Position numbers and translations under genes: made by a program. From positions 1-64,000 of the forward strand of contig JDUB01000014.1 in NCBI GenBank assembly GCA_000771265.1: DNA of 64,000 nt, written 5' to 3'. Within the stretch, counting starts at the first letter, position 1. Every line of letters begins with the position of its first letter. The notes beneath the pieces are model-generated. The model saw nothing but the letters and a program-made list of their open reading frames with translations. It was not told the DNA's origin and made no database searches. Positions 9,130 through 61,922 of this stretch are shown one piece after another. Source of the DNA: Bifidobacterium thermophilum DSM 20210 (GTDB lineage: Bacteria > Actinomycetota > Actinomycetes > Actinomycetales > Bifidobacteriaceae).

Positions 9130-9189
9130 AAGGATTGTTGGCTCGCGGAGTGGGTCGAAGTAGCTCGCCCACGAGCTGGATAGGTTAGT

Positions 9190-9205
9190 TTTGCAAGCGT
9201 TGTCA
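9190..9205. promoter_or_regulatory. Downstream LacI-type operator
   Basis: TTTGCAAGCGTTGTCA differs by one base from the operator over the second lacI promoter (25994-26009). Lying in the permease leader, it could act as a roadblock. Confidence 0.55.
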
Positions 9206-9246
9206 CTACGAGGTGACGGCGAGAGAGATAGAGAGGAGAGAGCAAG

Positions 9247-11017: not shown

Positions 11018-11053
11018 GCGTGTTTGCGGTGTTTTGCGGTGTTTGCGGCGTTG

Positions 11054-11217
11054 TGTGAGGATTCGCTCACACGGTGGGCGGTTGACTGGCTCGGACATGC
11101 CTGTCGGGACGGTAGACGGGTGGTTGTGTGAGGATTCGCTCACATAACGGGGCGGTATCTTGGCGGGGACTGCTTGAGAGAGGTTGATTGGCGGCACTGT
11201 GTGAGGATTCACTCACA
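11054..11217. repeat. Array of three 18-bp palindromes with 73-bp period
   Basis: TGTGAG-GATTCG-CTCACA occurs at 11054-11071 and 11127-11144, and with one base change at 11200-11217. Starts are exactly 73 bp apart. The 55-bp stretches between are unrelated or only weakly alike. The third copy has extra CACT/AGTG flanks. They lie between the permease operon and the DUF624 gene and could be operators on one face of the helix. Confidence 0.7.
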
Positions 11218-11237
11218 TAGTGCCGGGGCGTCTCTCC

Positions 11238-11279
11238 CAAACTGGTTACGCTGGGGCGGGCGTTTGCGTAGACAGTTTG
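11238..11279. repeat. CAAACTGG hairpin repeat
   Basis: CAAACTGGTTACGC (11238-11251) against GCGTAGACAGTTTG (11266-11279): 12 of 14 pairs plus one possible T-G wobble. Located immediately after the 73-bp palindrome array. Confidence 0.65.
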
Positions 11280-11445
11280 TGAAAGGGGGTGTGGCTGGGC
11301 TACGTGCCGCGCCTGTCCCACGCGCGCCACGCCTCTGCCCTGCATGCGATGGCGTCAGCCTTGGGCCAACGGGCGCATCATATGACAACGATTGCTGATG
11401 GCGGTTGCTAGGATGAGTGAGGACCAGCGACATCAAGGAGTCTTC

Positions 11446-26542: not shown

Positions 26543-26949
26543 GCTCCCAGGCGGTGTCAGTGGTGGCGCCGCCAAATGGCTCCGGCGAATGCCGCGATAA
26601 CTGAACAGGGAGTTCCCGCATGTCCTCCGGCGTGTCGCGGTTGGCGCCGCGGCGCCGGGGACGATTCGGGTCGGCTGATCGGGCGGACTGGCCCTGCGGG
26701 TCGGGTTCGGCTGGCGCGGCAGGCTCGATGCATCCCGGATGTTGTATGGGCTGTATGGTTCATCTGGCCAGTCTGGGCTATCTGGACTGAATGGTCTTGT
26801 GGTCTAGCTGGCGACTGTCGGGGTTCCGGCAAGGTCTGGTGGCAGGTGGATGGTGGTCCGGCAATGCCGGTGGCATTCCGGCGGGAGTATTCCGCATTCT
26901 TCTTCTGTATTCTCTGTATTCCTAGTGTGTGACGCCCCTCGGGGTGTGC

Positions 26950-26988
26950 AACGCCGGCAGGCCCGTGATTTCGCGGTCCGCCGGCGTT
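26950..26988 (+). terminator. Terminator-like hairpin
   Basis: AACGCCGGC (26950-26958) with GCCGGCGTT (26980-26988), then TGTTGTTG. It may be a remnant of a lost gene, as no gene ends just upstream. Confidence 0.45.
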
Positions 26989-27015
26989 TGTTGTTGATGG
27001 CGGTTGTCGGGTGTG

Positions 27016-27070
27016 GGCCTGCGGGGTGTGGGGCTGCAGGGTTGTCGGGGATGATGGCCTGCGGGGTGTG
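27016..27070. repeat. Two direct repeats with 40-bp period
   Basis: GGCCTGCGGGGTGTG occurs at 27016-27030 and 27056-27070, with related degenerate words between and after. Confidence 0.6.
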
Positions 27071-27207
27071 AGCCTGTGAGGCGTGGGGGCTGTCGGGATG
27101 CGTGAAGCCCCGCGCCGCGCGGATCGGGGGTTATCGGTCAACATGTGTTTCGGTGGCGAGTGTGCGTGAGTTGGAATCATCGGTCCGGGTGCTTCTGTGC
27201 GCATCCT

Positions 27208-27369
27208 GTATGTCGTGGCATGCGTGACTTGACGAATCTCGCCGGAGAACGGCTGTACTGGGTTGCGTTCGACGGTTTGCGTGTGCCTGTGCATGCGCCG
27301 TTTGACGTTCCGGACTTTGGGCGGGTCTGCACGCCTGCCATCCTGCGTGAAACGTATGCCGTGGCATAC
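27208..27369. repeat. Array of three 16-bp palindromes with 73-bp period (GTATGYC type)
   Basis: GTATGTC-GT-GGCATGC (27208-27223), GTGTGCC-TG-TGCATGC (27281-27296) and GTATGCC-GT-GGCATAC (27354-27369). Starts are exactly 73 bp apart; the 57-bp stretches between are dissimilar. The motif matches the array at 56693-56854. It lies 95-250 bp upstream of the dnaK operator. Confidence 0.75.
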
Positions 27370-27463
27370 GTGGTGTGTGCATGTCAAGGCAATCGGCGAG
27401 GTGAGCTTGAACGAGGCCGGAAAAAATTTTTCGACATGTGGGAATAAAAGTTGGCCATCCAAA

Positions 27464-27484
27464 GTTGAGTGATGTAGGCTCAAG
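27464..27484. promoter_or_regulatory. HAIR operator (HspR binding site) of the dnaK operon
   Basis: GTTGAGT-N7-GCTCAAG matches the HAIR consensus CTTGAGT-N7-ACTCAAG at 12 of 14 positions. It overlaps a possible -10 TAGGCT (27475-27480), whose -35 would be TTGGCC (27451-27456). HspR from the same operon should bind here. Confidence 0.8.
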
Positions 27485-27568
27485 TTTGGAAGCATCCAAC
27501 GGCACGGCCTCCGGGCGGTGCCGATTGAGCGAAGACGTAGACAACAGAACAACAATAAAGGAGAACAT

Positions 27569-29458
27569 ATGGGACGCGCAGTTGGTATCGATTTGGGTAC
27601 GACAAACTCCTGCATCGCAACGCTGGAAGGCGGCGAACCCACCGTTATCGAAAACGCGGAAGGCGCACGCACCACCCCGTCGGTGGTGGCCTTCAGCAAG
27701 TCCGGTGAGATCCTGGTCGGCGAAGTCGCCAAGCGCCAGGCTGTCACCAATGTCGATCGCACCATCAGCTCCGTCAAGCGCCACATGGGCACTGACTGGA
27801 CGGTCGAGATCGACGGCAAGAAGTGGACCCCGCAGGAGATTTCCGCGCAGATCCTAATGAAGCTCAAGAGGGACGCCGAACAGAAGCTCGGCGAGCCAGT
27901 TACCGACGCCGTCATCACCTGCCCGGCGTACTTCAACGACGCCCAGCGTCAGGCCACCAAGGACGCCGGCAAGATCGCAGGCCTCAACGTGCTGCGTATC
28001 ATCAACGAGCCGACCGCCGCGGCACTGGCCTACGGCCTCGAAAAGGGCAAGGAAGATGAACGCATCCTGGTCTTCGACCTCGGCGGCGGCACCTTCGATG
28101 TCTCCCTGCTGGAAATCGGCAAGGACGACGACGGCTTCTCCACCATTCAGGTGCAGGCCACGAACGGCGATAACCACCTCGGCGGCGATGATTGGGACCA
28201 GAAGATCATCGATTGGCTTGTCGGCGAAGTCAAGAACAAGTACGGCGTCGACCTGAGCAAGGACAAGATCGCCCTGCAGCGGCTGAAGGAAGCCGCGGAA
28301 CAGGCGAAGAAGGAACTGTCCAGCGCCACCAGCACGCAGATTTCCATGCAGTACCTGGCCATGACGCCTGACGGCACCCCGGTCCACCTCGACGAGACGC
28401 TCACCCGTGCACACTTCGAGGAAATGACCTCCGACCTGCTCAACCGCTGCCGCACGCCGTTCAACAACGTGCTGTCCGACGCGGGCATCTCCGTGAGCGA
28501 CATCAACCATGTCGTGCTTGTCGGCGGTTCCACCCGTATGCCGGCGGTCAAGGAGCTCGTCAAGGAGCTCACCGGCGGCAAGGAAGCGAACCAGTCCGTC
28601 AACCCGGATGAGGTCGTCGCAGTCGGCGCAGCCGTCCAGTCCGGCGTCATCAAGGGCGACCGCAAGGACGTCCTGCTCATCGATGTGACCCCGTTGAGCC
28701 TCGGTATCGAGACCAAGGGCGGCATCATGACCAAGCTCATCGACCGCAACACCGCCATCCCGACCAAGCGTTCCGAGATTTTCTCGACCGCTGAGGACAA
28801 CCAGCCGAGCGTGCTCATCCAGGTCTATCAGGGCGAGCGTGAATTCGCCCGTGACAACAAGCCGCTGGGCACCTTCGAGCTGACCGGCATCGCTCCGGCC
28901 CCGCGTGGCGTCCCGCAGATCGAGGTCACCTTCGATATCGACGCCAACGGCATCGTGCACGTGTCCGCCAAGGACAAGGGCACCGGCAAGGAGCAGTCCA
29001 TGACCATCACCGGCGGCTCCGCCCTGCCGAAGGACGAGATCGACCGCATGGTCAAGGAAGCGCAGGCTCACGAGGCCGAGGACAAGAAGCGCAAGGAAGA
29101 GGCCGAGACCCGCAATCAGGCCGAATCCTTCGCCTACTCCACCGAGAAGCTCGTCAACGACAACAAGGCCAAGCTGTCCGACGATGTGGTCAAGGAAGTC
29201 ACCGAGAAGGTCAACGCCCTCAAGGAAGCCCTGAAGGGCGACGACATCGAGAAGGTCAAGACCGCCCAGAGCGAGCTGATGACCTCTGCACAGAAGATCG
29301 GCCAGGCGCTGTACGCCCAGCAGGGCGCTGAAGGTGCCGCTGGTGCTGGTGCCGCTGGTGCCGCAGGCCAGGCTTCCGGTGCGGCCTCGTCCTCTGACGA
29401 CGACGTGGTTGACGCCGAAGTCGTGGACGATGACGACGACAAGAAGGACAACAAGTAA
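27569..29458 (+). CDS. dnaK: Chaperone DnaK (Hsp70)
   Basis: 629-residue ATP-driven chaperone. Nucleotide-binding domain (1-~360): GIDLGTTNS phosphate loop, [14 protein letters not shown], and [11 protein letters not shown]. Substrate-binding domain: [14 protein letters not shown] and onward, then the helical lid and a low-complexity Gly/Ala and acidic tail ([20 protein letters not shown]). An AAGGAG site precedes the ATG at 27569. First gene of the dnaK-grpE-dnaJ-hspR operon under a HAIR operator; its stop overlaps the grpE start (TAATG). Confidence 0.99.
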
Positions 29459-34481: not shown

Positions 34482-34527
34482 CACAAACTGTTGACGCTAA
34501 CTGGCCTTTCCGCGTAGCTGGTTTGTG
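34482..34527. repeat. CAAACTGG hairpin repeat (imperfect)
   Basis: CACAAACTGTTGACGC (34482-34497) against GCGTAGCTGGTTTGTG (34512-34527). Confidence 0.6.
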
Positions 34528-34535
34528 TGGTGGTG

Positions 34536-34577
34536 CAAACTGTTGACGTTAGCCGGGCATTCAGCGTAACCAGTTTG
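34536..34577. repeat. CAAACTGG hairpin repeat (imperfect)
   Basis: CAAACTGTTGACGTT (34536-34550) against AGCGTAACCAGTTTG (34563-34577). In tandem with the copy at 34482. Confidence 0.6.
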
Positions 34578-34778
34578 TAGGAGAGGTCAGTTTGAAGGAT
34601 GACCGGTCTGCGGGAGAGTAGCAGCGGGCGCACGCATTGCCGAAACGCCGGACATTCGTGTTGACCGATAATCCCGATGACCCTATTGGGCGGCCATCGT
34701 GCGCGCATTTCGGCGATAACCCTGATAACCCATAACTGCGACGGTTGCCCCCCAGAACCCCGCTATCGACTCACAAGG

Positions 34779-56532: not shown

Positions 56533-56692
56533 GATGCTCCTTGCTTGTGTGTGTCGGTGTTGAGTGTGTACGCGTGCCATGCGTATATGTCCAAAACCTT
56601 CATCGTACTCCGGGCTGGTTCCGGGCTGTTGGTCGCTTGCTGTCGGCTGTGTGCCGTCGGTTGTTTGCTGTCAGTCGCGTGCGGTATCGCGT
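56533..56692. other. Upstream part of the pepC-tatD gap
   Basis: No gene seen. The whole 56533-57048 gap is G/T-rich and is largely occupied by the 73-bp palindrome array, a 15-bp tandem repeat and the tatD -10 box. Confidence 0.4.
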
Positions 56693-56854
56693 GTATGTCA
56701 GGACATACGTCGCGTGTCAGAAGCAAGCGTTCGGCAGTCCGCAGATGTCGCTTGTGCGCTGTCGCGCATGTCCGGACATGCGCGAGCCGACGGATATCAA
56801 GGGGTCTCGCCGTCCTTCTGCGCCTTACGCATGGTTGTGTATGTCATCGCATAC
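56693..56854. repeat. Array of three 16-bp palindromes with 73-bp period (GTATGYC type)
   Basis: GTATGTC-AG-GACATAC (56693-56708), GCATGTC-CG-GACATGC (56766-56781) and GTATGTC-AT-CGCATAC (56839-56854). The middle one extends to a perfect 24-bp palindrome (56762-56785). Starts are exactly 73 bp apart. Same motif as 27208-27369. Confidence 0.8.
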
Positions 56855-56875
56855 GCGACCGGGCGGAATATTTCG

Positions 56876-61808: not shown

Positions 61809-61820
61809 GTCGCCTTCACC

Positions 61821-61862
61821 CAAACTGGTGACGCTGGGAGGCTTGTGAGCGTAGCTGGTTTG
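61821..61862. repeat. CAAACTGG hairpin repeat, first of three in tandem
   Basis: CAAACTGGTGACGCT (61821-61835) against AGCGTAGCTGGTTTG (61848-61862), imperfect stem. Confidence 0.65.
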
Positions 61863-61872
61863 TGGGAGGTTC

Positions 61873-61914
61873 CAAACTGGTGACGTTGGAGGGCCCCTGG
61901 GCGTAACCGTTTCG
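61873..61914. repeat. CAAACTGG hairpin repeat, second of three
   Basis: CAAACTGGTGACGTT (61873-61887) against GCGTAACCGTTTCG (61901-61914), degenerate. Confidence 0.55.
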
Positions 61915-61922
61915 TGTGTCTA

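Follow-up and report, generated by a model that had tools for sequence, protein, structure and literature searches.

Known MITEs include some with internal repeats (PMC4596501) and some with protein sites (PMC2229807, PMC10969869), as far as the excerpts of these papers show, and the MITE with a palindrome array described here is a variation on them. The excerpt on BrickBuilt from Porphyromonas gingivalis describes a MITE with a tandem repeat that is intergenic and limited in host range (PMC4596501). The bifidobacterial MITE is likewise intergenic, with a tandem repeat inside and a narrow host range, but the BrickBuilt repeats, according to the same excerpt, are 23 nucleotides long and have no spacers (PMC4596501), whereas here 44-bp palindromes are separated by spacers of ~29 bp at a 73-bp step and have cores that change more slowly. 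BOX and RUP of Streptococcus pneumoniae are dispersed small repeats that also have a narrow host range (PMC3049150, in part). The bifidobacterial arrays differ from both in sequence and in mobiliser, and are built of dyads that follow one another at a helical step without covariation between their half-sites. BOX elements have internal modules that vary in number.

The Correia elements, or Neisseria miniature insertion sequences, are described in the available excerpts as MITEs with an IHF site that can influence a neighbouring promoter (PMC2229807, PMC10969869). Where Correia elements have an IHF site, the elements described here have a palindrome array at seven helical turns and a predicted protein. 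REP, BIME and REPIN sequences are intergenic palindromes found in regular clusters, with several families per genome (excerpts of PMC2817692 and PMC3116915), and the bifidobacterial genome likewise has intergenic palindromes that are regularly clustered and belong to several families. Neither of the REP features, the hairpin and RAYT, was found for the bifidobacterial arrays. REP works as a hairpin together with a RAYT transposase. The IS1249 family (NCBIfam NF033544) is represented by pieces of transposase gene beside the same terminal repeats, and it shares the 8-bp target duplications; in contrast to IS1249, no transposase gene is recognised in the elements with arrays. Among the matches listed in a search of open-access literature, with subscription papers and preprints outside its scope, there was no paper on such Bifidobacterium repeats, and in the excerpt of the genome paper of B. 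thermophilum RBL67 the term "palindromic" is used for CRISPR only (PMC3642284).

The window analysed here is a 64-kb stretch of a 2.2-Mb draft genome in 48 contigs, hereafter the source genome. The initial annotation reported three copies of a 16-mer palindrome upstream of dnaK, and these are found at a step of exactly 73 bp (Table 1). It also reported a likeness to a second array, and this is borne out by palindromes at 56693, 56766 and 56839, again 73 bp apart. The palindrome family of these two arrays is called family A. An IUPAC scan of the window with up to three mismatches gives 47 matches against 42 expected, i.e. no excess. The pair pattern, two copies of GTATGYC-NN-GRCATRC 73 bp apart with three mismatches at most, has 59 forward and 55 reverse matches in the source genome; its reversed control has 0 and 0. 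Given that the single-motif scan is unremarkable and the excess of pairs is strong, the 73-bp pairing is the feature that is not due to chance. A 44-bp weight matrix, trained on source-genome arrays that include the middle sites of both window arrays, assigns 20.4-36.0 bits to the six sites of the window and 6.5 to the best other window position.

Table 1. Features of the window that bear on the palindrome arrays
Feature	Positions	Strand	Remarks
MITE I copy, right-truncated, of ~417-bp parent	27128..27370	+	aligns to MITE I 1-241 (1-242 in a second comparison); very probable assignment
Left terminal inverted repeat of the dnaK MITE I copy	27128..27154	+	6 mismatches to 27-bp consensus
Palindrome P1, 44 bp	27194..27237	.	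core 16-mer 27208-27223; 27.7 bits
Palindrome P2	27267..27310	.	core 16-mer 27281-27296; 27.6 bits
Palindrome P3	27340..27383	.	core 16-mer 27354-27369; 20.4 bits
HAIR-like inverted repeat GTTGAGT-N7-GCTCAAG	27464..27484	+	read in the sequence; downstream of the array and separate from it
dnaK (Hsp70)	27569..29458	+	PF00012, E 2.5e-241
Second family A array, element II type	56679..56868	-	palindrome centres 56700, 56773, 56846
Family B array, GTGTGAG-N6-CTCACAC	11053..11218	.	three sites, 73-bp step

Family A is, almost certainly, a dispersed family with many of its copies borne by MITEs. The initial annotation had offered a choice between one trans-acting factor and a dispersed element, and the second half of this is upheld by MITE copies, terminal inverted repeats and some 8-bp duplications. 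It had also described the spacers as different, which is true of the two window arrays, but the spacers of each recur in other arrays. Among the 15,931 pairs of 179 distinct spacers, 351 lie above the 99.9% shuffle level, where ~16 are expected, and the spacer types recur among loci in a fixed order; the dnaK array begins with spacer type 4, as do three others (L016, L018, L035). Alignments of the spacer-type groups extend past the arrays to inverted terminal repeats. An end is recognised in about one-third of the source-genome arrays and none in the remaining ones. Both termini are present in elements of type I (L018, L123, L153, L202-L204) and of type II (L025, L038, L086). At L046 the stretch 9186-9212 hints at a possible kinship of the MITE II end and the palindrome.

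Full-length elements are best seen in B. apri, which has five copies of 416-417 bp, each with three palindromes and IS1249-type inverted ends; four of the copies are identical to the fifth at 392-397 of 418 columns, and three of the five have 8-bp target duplications. One B. apri contig (C2) has a sixth pair of ends at equal distance, and L123 is a longer copy of 490 bp. Of 19 elements examined by eye or by script, 9 are flanked by exact 8-bp target duplications (4 of the 11 that bear arrays), and no exact one was found for the other 10; L123 has a duplication with one mismatch. At 416-417 bp, the array-bearing MITE I copies are too short for a transposase gene. Pieces of IS1249 transposase gene lie beside MITE termini in G050 and B. 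boum, and score under the curated cut-off because they are cut by contig ends; matches above the cut-off, from other copies, are present in B. apri and G130. A search of the source genome gave no IS1249 transposase match at E 0.001, in a 48-contig draft from which a copy may be missing through assembly; a decayed remnant, with one end of type II, is present at L057. The same termini also occur without arrays (L179, L194, L195, L199-L201), so that the array is cargo and is not needed for movement. G050, a bifidobacterium without a match to the A pair, has many pieces of IS1249 type, most of them at contig ends (L189-L193), and these have MITE I termini; the genome gave 33 IS1249 family matches and 21 terminal-repeat matches.

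The array upstream of dnaK is very probably a MITE I copy that has been truncated on the right, to judge from the alignment. It is identical to MITE I at 164 of 256 columns, starting at the first terminal base, and scores 132, with a maximum of 37 in 200 shuffles; with the palindromes masked the score is 53, with a maximum of 37 in 300 shuffles. The right 176 bp of MITE I were not found at the locus, where the dnaK promoter region with the HAIR-like repeat comes next. The copy has the left terminal repeat only, and since the right end is lost a target duplication cannot show. We take the HAIR-like repeat to be the probable HspR operator of dnaK.

No array was found upstream of the orthologous dnaK genes in B. 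apri, B. boum and a relative assigned to B. thermophilum (G114). The flanks have diverged, so that the exact borders of an empty site cannot be drawn. Because it is absent in these three relatives, the array is not a conserved dnaK operator, and a conserved heat-shock operator of dnaK was ruled out on the same ground. A link to dnaK is not sustained: the lack of an array at orthologous dnaK genes was one half of the refuting outcome named in the initial annotation, and all three relatives show it. Some arrays also lie between convergent genes, and nothing connects the palindrome array to heat shock. A species-specific effect of the array on dnaK is possible.

The second window array, at 56.7 kb, has a peptidase C1-like gene on one side and a TatD-type gene on the other, and B. 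apri has an array at the orthologous locus too (L135). The spacers of the window array are of types 2 and 6, reversed, the same pair as in L027, L052, L054, L086 and one L038 array. The array matches a MITE II copy at 121 of 183 positions, but this likeness is not significant after masking of the palindromes (score 38, shuffle maximum 42). No termini were recognised at this array, and it is the spacer types that link it to a full MITE II.

Two arrays were described initially, but at least 33-34 family A arrays are present in 512 kb of source-genome DNA, drawn from 57 sources that were chosen mostly for having matches; 34 chained arrays hold 127 sites. The A pair is found in 7 of 189 genomes of the family, the source genome counted. 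A sample of 393 other genomes of the class had none, with up to two mismatches allowed. An exact scan of the contigs of 84,980 species, which possibly excludes the source genome, gave 18 stretches, nine in B. apri, six in B. boum, two in B. thermophilum and one in B. minimum. In B. minimum (L074) and in G130 (L072, L073) the arrays are few and lie among genes that are 88-100% identical to array-side genes elsewhere, these being near arrays of B. thermophilum (L078), of B. boum (L084) or of each other. In view of this identity the arrays of B. minimum and G130 are read as passengers, which probably arrived by horizontal transfer. Across these five loci, highly alike gene groups in four species carry both A and B arrays. 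An array of eight family A palindromes with adjoining B sites is present in the source genome (L051) and in the genome of another genus (L071), next to a 184-codon ORF that is 97% identical between the two. A viral origin was rejected, given that the viral contigs have no exact A or B pair, as was a CRISPR array, since the cores differ at several positions between units and the repeats are not near-identical.

The arrays occupy intergenic DNA of every kind. The placeable arrays of the source genome fall in 7 convergent, 9 divergent and 7 tandem intergenic regions against a background of 16, 15 and 42, by crude gene calls, such that tandem regions are depleted (p 0.03) and convergent ones are not enriched (p 0.41). 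Over all carrier loci, counting copies of one locus in several species separately, 22 of 60 are convergent, 17 divergent and 21 tandem, and 6 more, of 66, have no called neighbour. A location at promoters only is ruled out by the arrays between convergent genes, and the presence of arrays in all of these settings means that no single regulatory role fits. The neighbours annotated with Pfam are mostly metabolic or housekeeping genes, including phosphorylase, PEP carboxylase, phosphate acetyltransferase and tRNA synthetase genes. Two genes for LacI-type regulators border arrays, with no link to the palindrome found, and Pfam annotation of the array-side genes revealed neither a candidate binding protein nor a common regulatory target. 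The array regions have a keto strand skew (G+T vs A+C) of up to ~0.6, which is correlated with the surrounding strand.

When 59 internal sites are aligned on the dyad, conservation extends to ~±22 bp, roughly as ATCTGYCGGGTTGCGTATGYC-NN-GRCATACGCAACCCGRCAGAT, and the ~29 bp between sites are unconserved. Across 127 sites the half-sites show no covariation, with pairing near or below expectation at the positions tested, and dyad positions such as 14 and 17 pair almost randomly. That the halves do not covary points to a protein dimer on double-stranded DNA and makes a hairpin unlikely. The steps within chained arrays of the source genome are 73 bp (70 steps), 72 bp (14), 74 bp (8) and 71 bp (1), where chaining admitted 71-75 bp only. 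In an unrestricted count over source-genome and carrier loci, 175 of the 178 neighbour distances below 100 bp lie at 71-75 bp and 136 are exactly 73 bp.

The core of the palindrome also changes more slowly than its surroundings. In 14 array pairs called orthologous from their flanks, with some arrays used in several pairs, core positions 2-8 are identical at 604 of 668 bases and spacers at 859 of 1078 (Fisher p 1.4e-9; this and the other Fisher tests take bases as independent), and the core substitution rate is about half that of the spacers. Five MITE I copies of the source genome, compared with the B. apri consensus, are identical at 180 of 208 core bases and 225 of 306 spacer bases (p 4e-4), and at 394 of 520 bases in the other interior; the difference between the core and the terminal repeats (139 of 174) is not significant (p 0.10). 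That the core changes more slowly suggests that something in the host uses it, and gene conversion may also explain the difference. A comparison of indel rates between array and flank agreed with constraint, but paralogous flanks are non-homologous and the comparison is not used as support. The features of an arrayed operator that are present are a symmetric site, independent half-sites and a slowly changing core. The palindromes may well be used today by a DNA-binding protein, as their pattern of conservation suggests. For the trans-acting factor of the initial annotation, the support from half-sites without covariation, a slower core and fixed spacing is indirect, and the protein is one that we infer.

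It is likely, on the sequence evidence combined, that the dnaK array is a decayed and truncated MITE with palindromes as cargo and that the palindromes are sites for a predicted dimeric protein. The array would be a copy of the kind of MITE moved by IS1249-type transposases, of the IS256/Mutator superfamily, and the cargo inside it is three palindromes of 44 bp, one every 73 bp. Each palindrome would be a double-stranded site for a homodimeric protein that is still present in the clade, and the step of 71-75 bp, or about seven turns, would place neighbouring dimers on one face of the helix, such that they could assemble side by side. Candidate effects of occupancy are on nucleoid structure, insulation or local repression. 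The 73-bp step itself could be a legacy of tandem duplication and need not have been selected. Provided that the palindromes are bound, a single bifidobacterial clade has tens of similar, helically spaced protein ladders in its intergenic DNA, and a small transposon supplied binding sites throughout the chromosome, in copies that seem to keep their cores while the remainder decays. Caution is also needed, given that such repeats near promoters can pass for operators, an error that the dnaK copy invites.

Alternatively, the elements could be purely selfish MITEs whose internal tandem repeat binds no protein, with the 73-bp step as a relic of duplication. The likeness of the palindromes would then come from gene conversion, recent copying or unequal exchange between units. 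This would suit the near-identical MITE copies in B. apri, the variable unit number of orthologous arrays (4/2/3/6), the 73-bp units of G170 that are alike over their full length, and the existence of array-free MITEs, which shows that movement needs no array; the pneumococcal BOX, RUP and SPRITE elements are judged parasitic in the excerpt seen (PMC3049150). This explanation is rather unlikely, in that cores change about half as fast as spacers at orthologous loci, the draft source genome has no IS1249 transposase match, and family B keeps the same step with a different inner sequence. It is improbable that the palindromes are internal sites for the transposase, or for a host factor that aids transposition: the MITE I termini are unlike the half-site (-11.9 bits), target duplications also flank MITEs of the same type that lack arrays, and isolated half-sites (44 at ≥13 bits) are no commoner than background. 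The MITE II terminal repeat does resemble the half-site in exact register at 7.0 bits, with a background frequency of ~5e-4, and the L046 variant reaches 15.4 bits, also in exact register. Tandem multimers of a tiny IS with abutted ends were rejected, as the palindromes at array termini are mostly complete and isolated half-sites are not above background; halves of ≥9 bits make up 78 of 118 outer and 99 of 118 inner halves of the array-terminal palindromes, and 215 of 242 internal halves.

Hairpins of RNA or single-stranded DNA, either terminator-like or of the REP/REPIN type moved by RAYT, are suggested by the dyad symmetry and by G.U-type pairs that are strongly one-sided per array (summed imbalance 642, with 247 expected). 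This one-sidedness, however, follows local strand composition, as it goes with keto skew in the spacers (core against spacer, r 0.86) and with GC skew in more distant DNA (r 0.57). An RNA hairpin was ruled out by half-sites that do not covary, with no excess of pairing in the 127 sites, and there is neither an Rfam match at the dnaK array nor a terminator-like site in 26900-27600. A REPIN/RAYT system was ruled out by its non-covarying arms together with the absence of PF01797 (Y1_Tnp) from the four main carriers (G000, G021, G027, G114); the domain was found in 1 of 20 genomes (G173). Hairpins of any of these kinds are thus very improbable. An array of heat-shock operators specific to dnaK is hardly credible, even with an array that ends ~185 bp upstream of the dnaK start codon, because the relatives lack it there, similar arrays lie beside metabolic, tRNA synthetase and other genes, and a separate HAIR-like site lies downstream.

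Family A is not the only palindrome family at this step. Family B (GTGTGAG-N6-CTCACAC) has the same 73-bp step and is often beside A arrays. Its pair gives 72 matches per strand in the source genome, with controls at zero, and is found in 8 of the 189 genomes, namely the seven A carriers and G170. On a first look, ACRCAAC is common to A and B at 7-13 bp from the dyad, with a weak B logo at positions 12-13, and this motif may serve as a lead. A second genus (g11; L142-L147, L163, L165) has further palindromes at ~71-74 bp, among them a B variant, ATGGYGA..TCRCCAT, GAGGGTGC..GCACCCTC and others. Sampled stretches of G024, G050 and G130, 80-90 kb per genome, had no palindromic repeat at 72-74 bp, and 24 other bifidobacterial loci gave two matches at 71 bp, both in one locus. 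A bolder and unlikely proposal is that one group of Bifidobacteriaceae has a 73-bp, or seven-turn, palindrome lattice as a general architecture. Its several families (A, B and those of the second genus, at ~72-74 bp) would each be read by their own member of a predicted DNA-binding family that coats the ladders and organises or insulates the chromosome, with IS1249-type MITEs spreading them. If so, the binding sites of a system that organises the chromosome are continually being spread by mobile DNA.

A 43-mer pattern for a further family, D, gave 0 matches. Family D itself (CAAACTG..ACGCT ... AGCGTA..GTTTG, with a long loop) has a 52-bp step, or about five turns, and is seen in the window at 34484-34580, 61820-61920 and 11238-11280, near A or B arrays or apart from them.
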